Source of the DNA: Xanthobacteraceae bacterium
Lineage (GTDB): Bacteria; Pseudomonadota; Alphaproteobacteria; Rhizobiales; Xanthobacteraceae
Reading direction: 5' to 3'
DNA length: 8,401 nt
NCBI GenBank assembly: GCA_030043175.1
Contig: JASHYD010001062.1
Coordinates: forward strand, 1 to 8,401
Shown here piece by piece: positions 1,047-8,401 of this stretch (its first letter is position 1; each line of letters starts with the position of its first letter). The notes below the pieces were generated by a model. It did not search any database. It was not told the DNA's origin and saw only the letters and a program-made list of their open reading frames with translations. The position numbers were made by a program, and so were the translations under genes.

Positions 1047-1688
1047 GGCGTGTCGTTTTCCTTCAGGCGAGCTTCCACTGCGCTAAGCCTATCTGGTGGC
1101 GACCGCTCGGCCAAGCCCGGGGCATCGCTGAGAACCTACCATCTGCGGCAGAAAGCGAAGAGATCGTCGTTTTTTGAAATTGTCAGCTCGTCTATGTTCG
1201 TCGGTGCTCAAGATCTCGCTCGGAGTCAAGCTGCTCGCGATGGTGTCCACGTTCACGCGCAAGCAGCGTCCAGTCAAACAGCGCAGTTCGCTTGCGCTCG
1301 CATCTCTCGATCATAAGTGACGCGATCAGGTCCCGTCTTTCCGCAAGCGTTCGGCACCATCGCGTGTAACGAAGAGCAGCTTGCGGTAGATTGAGCTCCA
1401 CGCTGATTGCCGAACGCGAAGGACACGTCCTCCATCTCCAGGATAGCTCGTGAGACAAGGCCCATGTATTCTGAAAGGCCGGCCTTCGCGCTCATCGACG
1501 CTTGGCCAGCTGTCCGCAGGCATGGCGACGCCACTTCTGGCTGGAGTGCTTTCGTAGCGCAACCTCGTACGGATACCCGCCGAGCCGATTAACGGCACTG
1601 CGGCGCACGACGAGCTCCGACCCGTCAAGGTCCGGCATGATACAATCGGCGAATTCGCCTTGCCGCTACGCCGCCCGACGGCTCTGGA
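1047..1688. other. Intergenic stretch without a supported gene
   Basis: About 640 bases between the TPR gene start and the senC stop. Short open frames exist on both strands (for example minus 1192-1458, 1274-1534 and 1326-1628), but they overlap each other, have no convincing ribosome binding site and give protein sequences that match no family I recognise. The stretch may be a decayed gene or plain spacer. Its right end should hold the senC 3' untranslated region, but I see no strong hairpin with a T-run there. Confidence 0.5.
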
Positions 1689-2738
1689 TCAGACGACCGC
1701 CACCTGGGCCGCGCCCTCCATGAACTCACCGATCACCGCGGCTCGATCGAAGCCTTCGTGTCGGAATATCGAGAGCACATCGTTCGCCGATTCGGCCGCG
1801 CAGGCCACGAGCAGACCGCCGCTCGTCTGCGGATCGGTAAGCAACGCCTTGCGTGCCATGCCGAGATTGCCGCCGAGGCTGACCTCGCTACCGTAGGATG
1901 CCCAGTTGCGCGCCGAGGCGCCGGTGACGAATCCCTCGGCCGCCATATCCTCGACGCGCGGCAGCAGAGGAATGCGATCCATTACGATCTCGGCGCGCAG
2001 ATTTGCGTTGCGACACAGGGGCAAAAGATGACCGAGCAGACCGAATCCCGTCACGTCAGTCATCGCGTGCACCGCGGAAAGCTCCGACAGCAGCGCCCCC
2101 GGGGTATTGAGTTTTGTTGTCGAGGCGACGAGCTCGCGGTAGCCGGCCGCATCGAGCTTGTTCTTCTTGACTGCCGCGGACAGCACCCCGACGCCCAGGG
2201 GCTTGCCCAAAATCAGCTTGTCGCCTGGGCGGGCACCGCGATTCGTCTTGACCTTGTCGGGATGCACCAGCCCCATGACCACGAGGCCGTAAATCGGCTC
2301 CACCGAGTCGATGGTGTGGCCACCAGCGATCGGCACGTGGGCTTCACGGCACACCGATTCGCCGCCGTCGAGGATGCTGCGAATAACTTCGAGGGGAAGC
2401 TTGTCAATCGGCATACCGACGAGGGCGAGCGCCATCATTGGCGTGCCGCCCATCGCGTACACGTCCGAGATCGCGTTGGTCGCCGCGATCCGTCCGAAGT
2501 CGTAGGGATCATCAACGATCGGCATGAAGAAGTCGGTCGTCGAAACCAGCGCCTGGTTGTCGTTGAGCTTGTAGACGGCGGCGTCGTCGCCGGTTTCGAT
2601 GCCGACGATAAGGTGCGGCGGCACCAAGGGCGTGCGGGCATTGCGCAGTATGTCAGTCAGAATATTCGGCGCGATTTTGCAGCCGCAGCCGCCGCCGTGC
2701 GAGAATGAGGTGAGCCGGATCTCGGTCATGGTGTTCAT
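1689..2738 (-). CDS. senC: Selenophosphate synthetase of the selenoneine cluster (SelD-like)
   Basis: This enzyme makes selenophosphate from selenide and ATP (selenide, water dikinase); here it most likely feeds SenB. The 349 residues match E. coli SelD (347 aa) from end to end. The N-terminal loop holds the catalytic pair C18 and K21 (Cys17 and Lys20 in E. coli) in a GGGCGCK motif. The nucleotide and metal part shows DDAAVY (51-56), TTDF (67-70), TNAISD (87-92) and GGH (139-141). The C-terminal half shows DVTGFGLLGH (228-237) and DPQTSGG (302-308). The catalytic position is ordinary cysteine, so no selenocysteine recoding is needed. It follows senB on the same strand after 8 bases, which suggests one transcript. 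It would be called selD by sequence alone; the senC name rests on its neighbours. It may also serve selenocysteine or selenouridine synthesis, but no selA, selB or selU is in the window. A second ATG three codons in (2729) is possible. Confidence 0.95.
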   Translation of the reverse strand: MNTMTEIRLTSFSHGGGCGCKIAPNILTDILRNARTPLVPPHLIVGIETGDDAAVYKLNDNQALVSTTDFFMPIVDDPYDFGRIAATNAISDVYAMGGTPMMALALVGMPIDKLPLEVIRSILDGGESVCREAHVPIAGGHTIDSVEPIYGLVVMGLVHPDKVKTNRGARPGDKLILGKPLGVGVLSAAVKKNKLDAAGYRELVASTTKLNTPGALLSELSAVHAMTDVTGFGLLGHLLPLCRNANLRAEIVMDRIPLLPRVEDMAAEGFVTGASARNWASYGSEVSLGGNLGMARKALLTDPQTSGGLLVACAAESANDVLSIFRHEGFDRAAVIGEFMEGAAQVAVV

Positions 2739-2743
2739 TTGGG

Positions 2744-2748
2744 TTCCT
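2744..2748 (-). promoter_or_regulatory. senC ribosome binding site overlapping the senB stop
   Basis: Read on the minus strand, AGGAA lies 5 bases before the senC ATG at 2738 and shares bases with the TAG stop of senB (2749-2747). A ribosome ending senB would be placed on the senC binding site, which favours coupled translation of the two enzymes. Confidence 0.6.
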
Positions 2749-3805
2749 ATCGTTTATGTTCGCTGCCGCGAAATACCGCGGGTCCAGAAGCCTGATGCAA
2801 ACCATCCTCGCCATGCCCATGCAATGGTCGGGTCAACGCCTCGTTCACCAGGCGATTGACGTCGGCCCACTCGCGCGCCGGTTCGAACAGCGGCGCACGC
2901 GCCGCGCATTGGCGTCGCAGACGAGCAAGAAAATCAGGTTCCTGGCTCGCGCGGTCCATCAGCTGCGCCAGCGCTTCGTCGTCACCCAACGCGAAGTAAC
3001 CATCATAGTCCGCACCCAGCATGCCGAGGTTGCCGGGAATCCTGCTGGCCAGCACCGGCACGCCGCAAGTGACTGCCTCGACGATTACGTTGGCACCGCC
3101 CTCCATCACGCTGGAGATTATCATTGCACGGGCGTTGCGGATTTGCCGCCGCGTTTCGTGATGTGGCCGAGCACCGAGCCAGAGATATCGTCGAACCGAT
3201 GGCCAGGTATGGGTCATCAGCTCATGCGCCGCCTGCGCATACTCTTCACTCAATGCTTCACCGATATGAATCAACCGCACGTTGGAAGTCGCCGGCAATC
3301 GCACGATCGCGCGCATTGGTGTCGCGGGATCCTTCTCGGCGCGCATATGACCGACCAGCACCAGATCGAAAGTGCGCGCGCGCGGCGTGCCTGGCGCAAG
3401 GGACGGCGCCGACTGGTAGATGACGCGACATTTTGGTCGATGAACGGGATCGATCGCGTCAAGCCCGGCCTCCTGCAAAACGATCAAATGCGTCGCGAGA
3501 TTCAGCGACCGCCGCGCCGTGAGATCTGCCGGGAGGTCGCGGTAGAGATCGGTGCCGGTGAGTACCACTACGCGAGGACAATCCGGAAACGCCTCTGCGT
3601 GGCGCTCGACCGCGTCGGCCGAGCGGCGCGCGTGCAGCGCGATCAGGCATTGTGGCGTCGTTTGCGGTGTCCACTCGCCGCACAGCTCGACATCAAAACG
3701 CGCACGCAGGATACGCGACCAGCGATGCGCGGTGCGCCAGTTGCCGTTGTTTGCTGCGCGCAGCGCCGGACTGACGATCGTGACTTTTGTCCTTTGGGAG
3801 CGCAT
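2747..3805 (-). CDS. senB: Selenosugar synthase, GT-B glycosyltransferase
   Basis: By family, SenB forms the carbon-selenium bond by joining selenophosphate-derived selenium to the sugar of a UDP-sugar, giving the selenosugar that SenA uses. From the ATG at 3805 the protein has 352 residues. The N-terminal Rossmann half opens with a beta strand and an ANNGNW motif (18-23) typical of the group, and carries LTGTDLYRD (82-90). The C-terminal GT-B half has the donor-site signature [10 protein letters not shown], an E-x7-E pattern with E235 and E243, followed by GVPVLAS and a Gly-Asn loop. There is no signal peptide or membrane segment, so it is cytosolic. Start choice: a GTG at 3832 would add nine residues and run into senA, but the conserved N-terminus begins just after the ATG at 3805. 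Neither start has a clear Shine-Dalgarno site. On fold alone it could be any family 1/4 glycosyltransferase; its place between senC and senA decides the call. Confidence 0.9.
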
Positions 3806-3807
3806 TG
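3796..3807. promoter_or_regulatory. Back-to-back start region of senA and senB
   Basis: GGGAG at 3796-3800 sits 7 bases before the senA ATG at 3808 and is a good ribosome binding site. The senB ATG, read on the other strand, occupies 3805-3803, so only two bases (3806-3807) separate the two start codons. The senA binding site therefore lies within the first codons of senB. No clear -35/-10 pair is visible on either strand around here; each promoter would have to lie in the opposite gene. Confidence 0.6.
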
Positions 3808-4989
3808 ATGAGGACCGAAGGGATCGAGGCACGAGGGTTAACCCGGAGCCGCCTTGAGTGCGCTATGGACGATGCGCATGAGCGCACGTGGGCGATCCTT
3901 GCGAATCTCACACCCGATCAATGGCGCGTCCCGTACCATGCCGGCATCAATCCGCCTCTTTGGGAGTACGGCCACATCGCGTGGTTCACTGAATGGTGGG
4001 TGTTGCGCGAAGCGTACTGGAACGAGCACGGTGACCTCGTCACGCGCCGCGGCTCGCTGTTTTCCGACACCGACCGCTGGTTCGATTCCGGCCGTGTCGC
4101 GCATGTCAACCGTTGGACACTTGATCTTCCTCCACTTGCCGAGCTCTGCGACTACGCCCACGAGGTGTTCGAACGTGTGCGGACAAAGCTTGCCGCGAGC
4201 GACACGTGCGATCTCGAAGCGTTCCGGCTCACGCTGTTCCACGAGGATATGCATGGCGAGGCACTCACTTACATGCGTCAGACGCTCGATTACTCGATGC
4301 CGTATTCGGATCGCATCGCGGCGCACCGCGGCGAACACGAGGACATCGAGCTCCCGGGCGGCCCGTTCGCGCAGGGCTCGACACGCGATGACGGGTTCGT
4401 GTTCGACAACGAGAAGTGGGCCCATGACGTGCAGCTCGCACCCGCGCGGATCGCGAGGGCATGCGTGACCAATGCGGCCTATGCCGCGTTCGTCGACGCT
4501 GGCGGCTATCGCGACACGCAGTGGTGGTCGCACGAAGGTCGGGCATGGCTCGCCGACCGGCGCCTCGCCCATCCGGCGCGATGGCGCAAAGGACGCGACG
4601 GCTGGGAGCATCGCTGGTTCGCACGCTGGGAGAGTTTGCCGCCCGACCAACCGGTGTGTCACGTCAGCGCGTTTGAGGCCGAAGCGTATTGCAGCTGGGC
4701 GCGTCGACGCCTCCCCACCGAAGCAGAGTGGGAGCGCGCAGCCACTCTCGGCCTGATCGACTGGGGCTGCTCGGTGTGGGAGTGGATGGCGGACGCTTTC
4801 GCACCATATCCCGGCTTTTCCGCGGATCGCTATCGCGATTACTCGCAGCCGTGGTTCCACACGCACCGCAGCGTCCGTGGCGGCTCCTTCGTAACGCGAC
4901 CTCGCATGCATCATCCGCGTTATCGCAACTTTTATCTGCCCCATCGCAACGACATCTTCATTGGTTTTCGTACCTGCGCGCTCGCTTGA
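3808..4989 (+). CDS. senA: Selenoneine synthase (EgtB-like iron enzyme)
   Basis: SenA joins hercynine to the SenB selenosugar at the imidazole ring in an iron- and oxygen-dependent step; loss of the sugar part then gives selenoneine. From the ATG at 3808 it has 393 residues. Residues about 10-165 form the DinB-like domain, with H56 (in YGHIAWF) and the HX3HXE motif H145, H149, E151, the expected iron ligands. Residues about 180-393 form the FGE-sulfatase-like domain, with [11 protein letters not shown] (302-312), [15 protein letters not shown] (323-337), RGGSF (357-361) and GFRTCALA at the end. The link between EWERAA and VWEW is short, and the [12 protein letters not shown] and YRDYSQPWF stretches are as I recall for SenA and not for ergothioneine EgtB. 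A TTG at 3787 adds 7 residues; an ATG at 3865 would cut the first helix. It is divergent from senB. EgtB or OvoA are the alternatives, made unlikely by the senB and senC neighbours. Confidence 0.94.
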
Positions 4990-5808
4990 GTCATGCGTTA
5001 CGGGCTCAGCACTTGTTCGCTGCATAACGCGCCCGAATAGGCGAGGAGCGGCCGGAGACGCGCGATCGCTGAGTCTCGGTGATTCGGCTTGCTCCGTCAT
5101 TTTCAATAGCGCGTCTCGACCGCCTGGTCCACGAGTTCACCAACCGCTCTTGAAGCCGCCGATCACGCACGTCGTGAAGCGCTTAGCAAACCTCGCAAAA
5201 AGGGCCAGATTTCCGAACCCCGCCAATCACTGTTAGCCCGAACCACCACTCTACACAAATTTTCGCACTCCGGATTCTTCGGCAGCCAATCGCCATAACC
5301 AAGCTGCGCCTCAGTCCCGTCCAATTATGCGGGCGGGAGATCACGCAGTACTGACCAGACCTTCCGCAAGGTCGAAAAGTGGCCGCCAATAGGAATATCG
5401 GCGCACCGTTGCAACCTTGATCGATCGCCGCGAGAGCCGTATGGAATGCAGTGCTCGTGATCGAACGGTTTTGTGCGCCAATCGCCTGGCTGTCGTGCCC
5501 CTTTGTTGGCGAGGGCATGTCGCAGGATGACGAAGCATCCGCGGATGCGCCTTGGGCTCAAGGCCAAGACCGCGACGAGCCCGTGCATGAGGTGCTCGGA
5601 AAAGACTGCACCTCGGCGGGGCTCGCAAATCATCACGTGCATAATCCAACGCCAGTTGCAATGGCGAGCCTGAGCGGTGCTCGGTGGCAAGCCCGCAGTC
5701 CCGCTGGGTTGCTACCAAAACAGCCACGATATCTGGCAACCGCCGAGAGAAACGGATTCTAGTCGCGCTAGAACTTTCCGAATCGTCACGAGCTCCGCGG
5801 ATCACCAA

Positions 5809-5859
5809 AAATTCGAGCATAATTTTCGACATTTCGACATCTTGCAAAATCTCGAATTT
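5809..5859. repeat. Nine-base inverted repeat in an AT-rich patch
   Basis: AAATTCGAG at 5809-5817 is the exact reverse complement of CTCGAATTT at 5851-5859, with 33 bases between. The arms do not extend further in either direction. The whole patch is clearly richer in A and T than its surroundings, and the core TTCGA recurs inside it. It could be a protein-binding site or a hairpin in RNA; neither can be shown here. Confidence 0.6.
5824..5839 (+). repeat. Two tandem copies of TTTCGACA
   Basis: The 8-base unit occurs at 5824-5831 and 5832-5839, directly joined, inside the spacer of the 9-base inverted repeat at 5809-5859. Two copies of a short unit can arise by chance, but the nesting makes a binding site worth considering. 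Confidence 0.55.
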
Positions 5860-6152
5860 CGGGACGCATCCCCTCAAAGCAGATCTGGACAGATGCCACC
5901 CTAGAAAGGTTAAGCCTTGCACCTTGGAAACAACACAACGCGCGTGGCTTTACGTTCAGGCGCTCGGATCGGCGGCCAACGCACTGTCGGCTTCGGATGT
6001 CGCCAATAGCTTGGTGTGGGCCGCCGTTTGACCGGGTTACGGACTCAATTAGCTCATATCCAATGGACCGCGGTGGCGACGAGAGAGGGGCTGTAAAACA
6101 AGTTTTGAGCGCGTTTGTCGTGCGCGTGGCAATGCGCGGATGGCGCTGCGTG

Positions 6153-6179
6153 ACGCCGGGTGGTTGCCCCCGGCGTTTT
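6153..6179 (+). terminator. Candidate intrinsic terminator, plus strand
   Basis: ACGCCGGG at 6153-6160 pairs perfectly with CCCGGCGT at 6169-6176 around an 8-base loop, and TTT follows (four T in a row counting the last paired base). The stem is GC-rich, as intrinsic terminators require, but the T-run is short. No plus-strand gene that I can support lies in the preceding 1.1 kb, so it either ends an unannotated transcript, possibly a small RNA, or is a chance hairpin. On the minus strand there is no T-run after the stem, so it does not fit the small genes at 6389-6936. Confidence 0.4.
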
Positions 6180-6388
6180 CAATCGCAATCGCTGACGTGC
6201 GAAACCGACCTGCGAGGCACTCGGAGGCATTGCACATGTCGACGCCGCGCGCGTCTACAAGGGGCACCGCACGACTCTCACGAAGGCGCACCGCCTCGGC
6301 GCGGCACACGTCGCCAGGCCTCTCGCCCGGCGACATCCACTGCGCGCTGCGGGCGAGCAATTAATGTTCGCCTTGGCGCCGAACCGCT

Positions 6389-6727: not shown

Positions 6728-6936
6728 AGGACTGGCTCTCCTGTCCGTGGCATTCGCTCCAATCGTCGCCGAGTGAACGCGCGCGCTTGATCCTCGACGT
6801 CAGCGAGCAGGATGTAATCCTTAGCCATGAGCGAATAGCGATTTTTCATTTGGCTTGAGAGAGTAATTGTGGCGAGGTGGCGACACTCCTCCGCGAGGTC
6901 GCGATAACGTTCTGCGCGATTTACTGTATCCAACAT
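6724..6936 (-). CDS. Small helical conserved hypothetical protein (rhizobial family)
   Basis: A 70-residue protein of unknown function. The opening TVNRAERYRDLAEECRHLA (4-22) and the following Ser-Gln-Met-x-Asn-Arg-Tyr segment (28-34) match a small helical family I recall as common and multi-copy in Bradyrhizobium-type genomes. It appears to be two or three amphipathic helices ending in an Arg-rich tail (about 55-64), without a signal peptide or membrane segment. The ATG at 6936 has a good AGAGG ribosome binding site. Its stop overlaps the start of the gene at 6727 by four bases, so the two form a small operon with this gene first. Confidence 0.8.
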   Translation of the reverse strand: MLDTVNRAERYRDLAEECRHLATITLSSQMKNRYSLMAKDYILLADVEDQARAFTRRRLERMPRTGEPVL

Positions 6937-7618
6937 ACGACACCTCTGTGGTCATCAGGCTACAGACGGGGCGGCCGAGGATCCCAGAACAGCAGCCGAT
7001 CAAGAGAACTGACCCCAGGGCAACAAACGGTCAGGGAGTAGCGAGGGCCACGACCGAGCCCAACGCGATTGCGCCAATCGCAGCTCTGCTATCTGTGATG
7101 GGTAACTCCCGCGCGTCCGGTGCCCGATGGTTATGTCGATCACCAGACGGAAAAGTCCGGCGGGTAAGTTCTTGTTCCCGCCTTCCCTTCACATATCTGC
7201 GAGCAACTCCTGGACCCCAATCACACATTTGCGAGGGCAGACCGTCGCACCGTCCGCCAGCAGGAAAGGGAGCAACTCACGGAAATCACCGGCCGCCCGC
7301 AAAGGTCTCACCAAACCCGGTGGGGACCGACGCCGCCATACCACTGCAACGAAAGTAGCTGGCGGCGCACGGCATTGGAGAAACAATGTCGCCCGGCATA
7401 AATCCGACGCCATCTCTCCGCCCGCTTTCATGGGCTCATACCCACGAGGTGGTATTAGCGGCCCCTGGCCCCGTGCGACCGAGCCTGCGGCATGTTTCTT
7501 GGCAGTCCGCGGGATTTGGGTTCCCCAGCAACGTCACCAGCACGCGCCTGGCAGGCTTTCCCGGCGAGTAGCCCCGCCCGGCGTCACATCCGAGCAGGGC
7601 TCACACGCGTCTCGCCGC
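6937..7618. other. Intergenic stretch without a supported gene
   Basis: About 680 bases between the small two-gene operon and the end of the partial gene at 7619. It should hold the promoter of the operon (near 6937-7010) and the 3' end of the transcript from 7619, but I see no clear promoter boxes and no hairpin with a T-run. An ATG at 7386 has GGAG at a good distance, but its 61-residue product does not look like a real protein. Confidence 0.5.
6943..6947 (-). promoter_or_regulatory. Ribosome binding site of the 70-residue protein
   Basis: Read on the minus strand, AGAGG lies 6 bases before the ATG at 6936. This supports that start and the reality of the small gene. Confidence 0.6.
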
Positions 7619-8401
7619 TCAGTGCGCGAGCGGATCGGGCCGCAGCTGGAAATGAACGACCATCGGCTTGCGTCCCTTCCCGCCTTCCTTGAGCCACGGC
7701 GCACGATCGCCACTCGTGGTCCACAGTCCACGGCCCTTCCAGCCCGCGTTCGGGTCGTCGATGCGCCCATCGAATCCCTTGGCATAGAAGCCGAGCGGGT
7801 AAGGCACGCGCAGCGTGACCATCTTGCCATCCTTGAGCGCGATCAGGCCGTCGTTGAGATTGCCGGTGGACATCGGGACATCATCCCCCAGCCCGAAGGT
7901 GTTGTGCTGGTCAACCCAGCTGTAGTAGCTCGCTTCGGCACTATTGTCGCCAATGCCTTCGAAGCCAGGGCCCGGATACTTGTAGAACTTCCACCCCTCG
8001 GGACAATGGTCACCGGTGGCGTTGGGGCCGTTGAGCGGCCCTTTGCATAGACTCCTGTCGAAGCTGCCGATGTGCCCGCTCGCGAGGGACACCCACACGA
8101 CGCCCTTGCTGTCTATATCGCCGCCACGCGGGCCGTAGCCCGGCAGCGGAATGTTGTAGATTTCCGTCAGGGCCGTTTCGGGCGGGTTGGCACCCGGGGC
8201 GACGCGGATCACGGCGCCCCGGCCGACGAACACGCCGACTGTGCCCCAGATGGAGCCGTCAACCGGATTGGGCATCACGGCATAGAAGCCGCCGCTGCCG
8301 GTGATGCGCTTGTCCTTGGTCGGATCGACCGGCTGGTTGGGCTCGACATAGTCGTCGCGCTTGCCGTTGCCGTTGGTATCGAGAACGAACGCCGTCCAGC
8401 C
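7619..8401 (-). CDS. Streptogramin-lyase-like/carboxypeptidase-regulatory-like protein, C-terminal part
   Basis: Only the last 261 residues are in the window; the frame is open through the right edge, so the GTG at 8278 is an internal codon and not the start. The visible part begins with a DTNGNGKRDDY segment (complement of about 8348-8380) that resembles an acidic calcium-binding loop, then EPNQPVDPTKDKR. After that come short strand-rich segments such as DGSIWGTVGV, SKGVVWVSLASGHIGSFD, and a WKGRGLWTTSGD stretch, ending in FQLRPDPLAH. This pattern, with repeated D-G-x-x-W units, is that of beta-propeller proteins annotated as Vgb/streptogramin-lyase-like or carboxypeptidase-regulatory-like, usually several hundred residues long and exported. 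CKGPLNGPNATGDHCPEGW holds two cysteines that could form a disulfide. No lyase activity is claimed. The function is unknown; the family call is by recall of its C-terminal end. Confidence 0.75.
   Translation of the reverse strand, partial: GWTAFVLDTNGNGKRDDYVEPNQPVDPTKDKRITGSGGFYAVMPNPVDGSIWGTVGVFVGRGAVIRVAPGANPPETALTEIYNIPLPGYGPRGGDIDSKGVVWVSLASGHIGSFDRSLCKGPLNGPNATGDHCPEGWKFYKYPGPGFEGIGDNSAEASYYSWVDQHNTFGLGDDVPMSTGNLNDGLIALKDGKMVTLRVPYPLGFYAKGFDGRIDDPNAGWKGRGLWTTSGDRAPWLKEGGKGRKPMVVHFQLRPDPLAH

Follow-up and report, generated by a model that had tools for sequence, protein, structure and literature searches.

Does an 8,401-nucleotide stretch of bacterial DNA (contig JASHYD010001062.1 of assembly GCA_030043175.1; hereafter, the window) hold a complete set of genes for selenoneine synthesis, and in what kind of bacterium does the set reside? 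Inspection of the sequence had suggested that three adjacent genes in the window, senA, senB, and senC, encode every dedicated step of selenoneine synthesis and that they belong to a rhizobial-type genome. The analysis presented here indicated that the locus was very probably an intact selenoneine cluster of beta-proteobacterial type and that a beta-proteobacterium akin to Burkholderiales was its most likely host. The gene set itself was ordinary, with a known pathway and the commonest gene order. The window thus provides a further intact case of a selenium-metabolite pathway that is already known, and its main use is corrective, both for a published SenB motif and for the guess at the host.

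Kayrouz et al. described the sen pathway in 2022; as summarized in a commentary (PMC9814287), that work covered sen clusters in the hundreds, the production of selenoneine, and reconstitution of the pathway in vitro. Homology predicts the following route for the window proteins. SenC would use selenide and ATP to generate selenophosphate. SenB would then use the selenophosphate to displace the uridine diphosphate (UDP) of a UDP-sugar (UDP-glucose or UDP-N-acetylglucosamine in Variovorax), which would yield a 1-seleno-sugar. Finally, SenA, an iron enzyme, would couple the selenium of this sugar to hercynine, with selenoneine as the predicted product. In SenA chemistry, the coupling takes place at C2 of the imidazole with oxygen and is followed by C-Se cleavage.

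Layout of the sen genes

A check of the open reading frames (ORFs) in the window revealed three uninterrupted ORFs between positions 1689 and 4989, as had been proposed, and they corresponded to senC, senB, and senA (Table 1). The senA gene is transcribed divergently from senB and senC. The latter two genes are probably one operon because only 8 bases lie between them; an AGGA sequence precedes the senC ATG and overlaps the senB stop codon. The start codons of senA and senB are separated by 2 bases (CATTGATG). In the case of senA, the ATG at 3808 was consistent with the N termini of most of 32 homologues in an alignment, and the GGGAG listed in Table 1 sits seven bases 5' of it. In the case of senB, an in-frame GTG at 3832 was a less likely start than the ATG that we used.

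Table 1. Coordinates of the sen genes and of the putative senA ribosome-binding site in the window
Feature	Positions	Strand	Description
senC	1689-2738	-	349 amino acids (aa), SelD-type selenophosphate synthetase (selenide, water dikinase)
senB	2747-3805	-	352 aa from ATG at 3805, GT-B selenosugar synthase
senA	3808-4989	+	393 aa, EgtB-like non-heme iron selenoneine synthase
Shine-Dalgarno-like GGGAG for senA	3796-3800	+	Read from sequence; antisense within the first senB codons

Family membership and key residues

The identities and full lengths originally assigned to the three proteins were confirmed by family cut-offs, nearest solved structures, and the main published catalytic residues. SenA scored 506.9 bits (E = 4e-152) against NCBIfam NF041186, the SenA equivalog model with a cut-off of 420, and it contained the Pfam domains DinB_2 and FGE-sulfatase. 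Its nearest solved chains were those of selenoneine synthase (8ryz and 8k5i, 302 bits each). The iron ligands H56, H145, and H149 were located at the positions first claimed for them and were invariant in 33 of 33 aligned SenAs. The iron motif of the window SenA is HEDMH. This motif was also found in 106 of the 133 proteins from related loci that had one, whereas HEQQH was found in 11 of the 133, all of them from rows set aside as EgtB-like; these counts take in a few loci from the same genome.

We placed the window SenA in a FastTree tree of 159 rows, which consisted of the window, 32 of the 120 listed SenA homologues, and 126 locus proteins. The tree did not include loci from the same genomes or some others, for example L105, whose score on the SenA model was 379 bits. 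The window SenA fell in a 45-row clade (support, 100) with loci L002 to L012, L066, and metagenome proteins. The locus titles in this clade named Burkholderiales, Burkholderiaceae, Cupriavidus, Paraburkholderia, and Burkholderia, and the taxon-named proteins were from Thiobacillaceae, Casimicrobiaceae, Glaciimonas, Rhodoferax, Burkholderiaceae, and Cupriavidus. The window SenA did not group with EgtB; it stood apart from 11 of the 14 EgtB-like controls, which were separated from SenA by a branch 0.9 long with 100% support, and the other three were on the SenA side. This SenA lineage recurs, because a metagenome SenA that is 98% identical to the window SenA (P0001) represents six contigs, which are up to 26,257 bases long.

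The three EgtB-like rows on the SenA side had features of their own. Their proteins (L085:2559-3803, L088:102-1343, and L110:1492-2733) carry HEDAQ or HEDMQ instead of HxxxH, with Gln in place of the third iron His. They scored about 370 bits on the SenA model, for which the cut-off is 420, and egtD adjoins in L085 and L088.

SenB scored 425 bits (E = 1e-127) against TIGR04348, the SenB model of NCBIfam with a cut-off of 300, rather than grouping with unrelated sugar transferases. It belonged to the glycosyltransferase group 1 family of Pfam, and its only solved relatives at E <= 0.001 were four SenB sequences (8k5u, 8fbx, 8jjq, and 8jjn). SenB structures and mechanism are described in PMC10702425 and PMC10891094. 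From the available portions of these papers, we took 17 positions that were reported to contact the sugar donor, UDP, or selenophosphate, with numbering transferred via motifs, and the window SenB kept the Variovorax letter at 15 of the 17. The equivalents of N20, H58, T85, Q131, R155, K158, E231, and E239 were present, and each was invariant in 98 of 98 SenBs (98 distinct sequences, including the window, from 101 longer than 250 aa). In the alignment, the catalytic Lys158 and the sugar-site residues N20, T23, and E231, whose roles are those given in the same portions of the literature, were all found.

The window SenB differed from the Variovorax enzyme in having Arg (window residue 213) for L209 and Asn for H235. 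According to the sections of PMC10891094 and PMC10702425 that were accessible, L209 contacts uracil via its backbone and the Ala mutant is more active; H235 reaches the sugar at C4', and Variovorax SenB with a mutated H235 remains partly active. EGGAHV, the motif around position 235, is named as a key SenB motif in PMC10891094, where the accessible text bases it on enzymes from Variovorax, Comamonadaceae, and Ramlibacter. The window SenB lacks EGGAHV and carries EGGANV, which is the majority form: among the 98 SenBs, EGGANV was found in 87, EGGAHV in 10, and EGGAQA in 1. Thus, the motif in the literature is a minority form, which we did not take to define the family, and the Asn in the window SenB is normal. 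We considered the His-to-Asn change as a defect or a novelty and rejected both, because EGGANV is the family norm. SenBs with Asn235 make up most of the family, and the portions of the literature at hand held no test of their sugar preference.

SenC scored 535 bits against PRK00943 (cut-off 299, E = 5e-161) and 440 bits against TIGR00476 (cut-off 125), both in NCBIfam, and it contained the AIRS domains of Pfam. The closest solved chain was 3u0o, a selenide water dikinase (E = 2e-101). Cys18 and Lys21 lie within the motif HGGGCGCK and are presumably catalytic, as are the corresponding residues in SelD of Escherichia coli. The sequence GGGCGCK was present in 54 of 60 senCs extracted from related loci.

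In three other senCs near senA, the catalytic position is occupied by an in-frame TGA codon (SSCAG*AAK or ASK). They were found in two Candidatus Eremiobacterota metagenome-assembled genomes (MAGs) and one unclassified MAG (L067:11265-12320, L070:12359-13399, and L074:11229-12272). These genes probably encode a selenocysteine-containing SelD within a selenoneine cluster.

Gene order in related loci

Related loci were collected in a genome scan with the SenA alignment, and the best 80 of 561 loci were kept, some of which were cut by contig ends. The best matches of SenA, SenB, and SenC among the 80 fetched loci were from Burkholderiales. The order seen in the window, with senC and senB on one strand and senA on the other, was the commonest arrangement (54 of the 80). 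The senC gene was downstream of senA in 6 loci, only senB and senA were found in 14, only senA was found in 5, and senA and senB pointed in one direction in a single locus.

The 2-base gap between senA and senB looked like an oddity, an idea that was rejected because nearly touching starts are common to the nearest loci. They were observed in 12 of the closest loci (L002 to L012 and L066). Under a start-codon rule, nine of the 12 had CATG with a 2-base overlap of the starts, and L010 had the same CATG by eye. L002 showed a 2-base gap as in the window, and L003 differed. In every one of the 12 loci except L003, inspection by eye placed a GGAGG for senA within the initial codons of senB (11 loci). 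The start-codon rule favors starts near the window alignment, which biases the gap table toward small gaps, and we relied on the printed sequences. The head-to-head starts are shared partly by common descent because the 12 loci are related.

A gap this small leaves no room for a promoter between senA and senB. Each promoter would lie inside the partner gene, and the 5' ends of the two messages, unless leaderless, would overlap as antisense RNAs, an arrangement that could couple senBC output to senA. If so, the output of senBC, which would form the selenosugar, would be tied to that of senA, which would consume it. The gap and the ribosome-site motif were observed directly; the regulatory effect is a tentative idea that we consider rather unlikely. 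No sigma-70-like promoter was found between 1000 and 5300 on either strand, where 1.0 was expected by chance, a result that speaks neither for nor against overlapping messages.

Comparison with other sen systems

The sen cluster of Variovorax paradoxus DSM 30034 has the same three enzymes (PMC9814287), and, as far as the available portions of PMC10891094 and PMC10702425 go, its SenB matched the window SenB at most compared positions, as described above. Unlike it, the window SenB carries Asn at the position of His235 and Arg at that of Leu209, and the window SenA is located on the branch of the Burkholderia, Cupriavidus, and Paraburkholderia SenAs. Closer systems were found in L002 (a Burkholderiales MAG), L004 (Cupriavidus sp. 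amp6), and L006 (Paraburkholderia piptadeniae). These have divergent senA and senB genes with nearly touching starts, as in the window, and their SenA and SenB proteins are 60-64% and 60-67% identical to those of the window, respectively. L004 has senC after senB. In contrast to the window, L002 and five Paraburkholderia loci (L006, L007, L008, L011, and L012) showed no senC match in the DNA examined.

Divergent senA and senB genes are also annotated in the public record of pMPOP01, a plasmid of Methylorubrum populi BJ001 (Hyphomicrobiales). In this case, SenB is only 41% identical to the window SenB, no senC is annotated beside the pair, and the pair lies on a 25-kb plasmid near transposases. 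Specifically, senA adjoins an IS6 transposase, and an IS256 transposase is located about 3 kb past senB (L146). This context points to mobility of the senA-senB pair. Because Hyphomicrobiales sen genes have already been annotated on pMPOP01, a rhizobial host for the window genes would be no first. A literature search on selenoneine and rhizobia, judged by titles and the openings of abstracts, yielded no paper on rhizobial sen genes.

Alternative readings of the gene set

We weighed three other readings of the gene set against a selenoneine cluster. EgtB and OvoA/OvsA share EgtB-like domains with the window SenA and, in most cases, the HxxxH iron motif. On one reading, an ordinary ergothioneine EgtB lies by chance near an unrelated glycosyltransferase and a housekeeping SelD. 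The window SenA does reach 260.5 bits on the EgtB model TIGR03440, and the model scores do not distinguish SenC from SelD. However, the EgtB score was 100 bits below its cut-off of 360, whereas the SenA score was 87 bits above its own; the iron motif was HEDMH versus HEQQH in 11 of the 14 EgtB-like controls; SenB passed TIGR04348; and the trio was in the same order in most of the 80 loci. The results made such a chance neighborhood highly improbable. Another organoselenium product, such as ovoselenol, was equally improbable. Among solved relatives of SenA, OvsA ranked directly behind the SenA structures themselves, but at 207 versus 302 bits, and the window SenA, which passed the SenA equivalog cut-off, scored only 108 bits on the OvoA N-terminal model (cut-off 400). 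The third reading is that the SelD of the operon also supplies selenocysteine or selenouridine synthesis, which would make the locus a general selenium hub. Here, the passing scores of SenC on SelD equivalog models and the presence of a SelD relative, 65% identical, in an Ensifer formate dehydrogenase/selA locus have to be set against the tight pairing of senB and senC, the lack of a tRNA gene in the window, and the failure to recognize selA, selB, or selU among the window ORFs tested. A wider role of this kind was possible but somewhat doubtful.

Several observations weighed against an intact selenoneine cluster of beta-proteobacterial type in a Burkholderiales-like host. The three EgtB-like rows on the SenA side (L085, L088, and L110; branch length, 1.0) meant that the split from EgtB was not perfectly clean, and the tree program cautions that long branches are often joined falsely. 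The closest taxon-named relative among the 120 listed SenA homologues (P0040) was 66% identical. Arg at the L209 position was found in 4 of the 98 SenBs, including those of the window, L002, and L003. SenC scored as a plain SelD, and its assignment to selenoneine synthesis depends on its position in the operon. The gene at 7619-8401 was 78% identical to a plasmid gene of the nodule isolate Microvirga ossetica, its sole match in 72,556 plasmid records. Finally, the proposal that every dedicated step is encoded held for the three selenium-specific steps and fell short for hercynine: no hercynine synthase (EgtD) was found among the window ORFs tested. When the genomes of 22 of the 80 related loci were searched, 20 contained an EgtD that passed its cut-off. 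One of the two exceptions had a split match under the cut-off, and the other (G004, the MAG of L005) had none.

The host of the cluster

The idea of a rhizobial-type genome was not supported. The sen proteins matched Burkholderiales best, alpha-like SenAs were elsewhere in the tree, and a flanking gene occurred in both groups. SenA was over the cut-off in 11 of the 398 genomes in a phylum sample and in 13 of the 385 genomes in the class of the alpha-like genome G222; a match to the window SenA at E <= 1e-90 was found in 10 of the 220 genomes in the order of G001, the Burkholderiales MAG that carries L002. Twelve of the 13 SenA-positive genomes in the class of G222 yielded a locus. Their 12 SenAs were in a separate 22-row group (support, 87) and were 36-42% identical to the window SenA. 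A senC piece, 32-38% identical to the window SenC, lay beside 6 of these 12 short loci.

The alpha-like label of the order of G222 rests on GcrA, which we take to be an alpha-proteobacterial marker and which G222 and G239 have, although the GcrA control also matched in Sulfolobus acidocaldarius. None of 15 genomes tested for GcrA had it, and 11 of these genomes were SenA-positive over the cut-off. This absence fails to exclude the class of G222 because one genome without GcrA, G161, belongs to that class.

The gene at 7619-8401 was the first pointer, and it suggested a Microvirga-like host; the order comparison then went the opposite way, and flanking genes were rejected as a guide to the host. 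In the phylum sample, the gene was present in 2 of 398 genomes (G222 and G239, 67% identity). When 150 genomes were sampled from each order, it turned up once in the order of G222, in G222 itself, which had been picked as the center for matching, versus 10 times in the order of G001, where identity reached 76% and one match spanned 32 residues; the order of G222 is alpha-like and may not be the rhizobial order, and the comparison is no direct test of a rhizobial order. When the genome with the 32-residue match (G967) was left out, SenA was over the cut-off in 7 of the 9 genomes in the order of G001 that were positive for this gene. The case illustrates how readily a single flanking gene can prompt a guess at the host.

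Searches with the remaining flanking genes were uninformative about the host. A 112-aa gene had 2 weak matches in 121 genomes in the order of G222 (35-36% identical, one with two in-frame stops) and 0 in 120 in the order of G001, a search made without a positive control. Neither this gene nor a 67-aa ORF (6735-6936) had a match in the plasmid collection. The plasmid matches of the TPR gene were all below 60% identity, and none of its 35 listed relatives had a taxon name. Neither a tRNA nor an rRNA family reaching its gathering score was found in the window. The G+C content of the sen genes was 0.63-0.64, compared to 0.64-0.65 for the two larger flanking genes, and thus gave no sign of transfer.

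These data bear on the possibility that the host is a rhizobial alpha-proteobacterium that gained a Burkholderiales-type sen cluster by horizontal transfer. The match to the Microvirga ossetica plasmid gene, the 67% matches in two GcrA-positive genomes, the restriction of the weak 112-aa-gene matches to the order of G222, a group II intron match next to senC, and the sen genes near transposases on the Methylorubrum plasmid would all fit such a history. However, the gene at 7619-8401 was found more often in the order of the Burkholderiales MAG, the matches of the 112-aa gene were at low identity with one interrupted by stops, the sen-gene G+C resembled that of the two larger flanking genes, and the TPR gene had no taxon-named relative among those listed. 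We judged a rhizobial host unlikely. We conclude that the host is more probably a beta-proteobacterium and that, whatever the host, the cluster is beta-proteobacterial in type.

Other features of the window

An Rfam group II intron D1-D4-2 match (39.2 bits, gathering score 36) was located at 1315-1433 on the minus strand, between senC and the TPR gene. The one ORF tested at this site (1329-1628, minus strand) had no Pfam family, and the match is possibly a remnant. About 2 kb of the window (4990-6388 and 6950-7618), mostly of lower G+C content, is without a recognized gene. The sole ORF tested there (5341-5922, minus strand) had no Pfam or NCBIfam match, and these two segments are possibly decayed genes.

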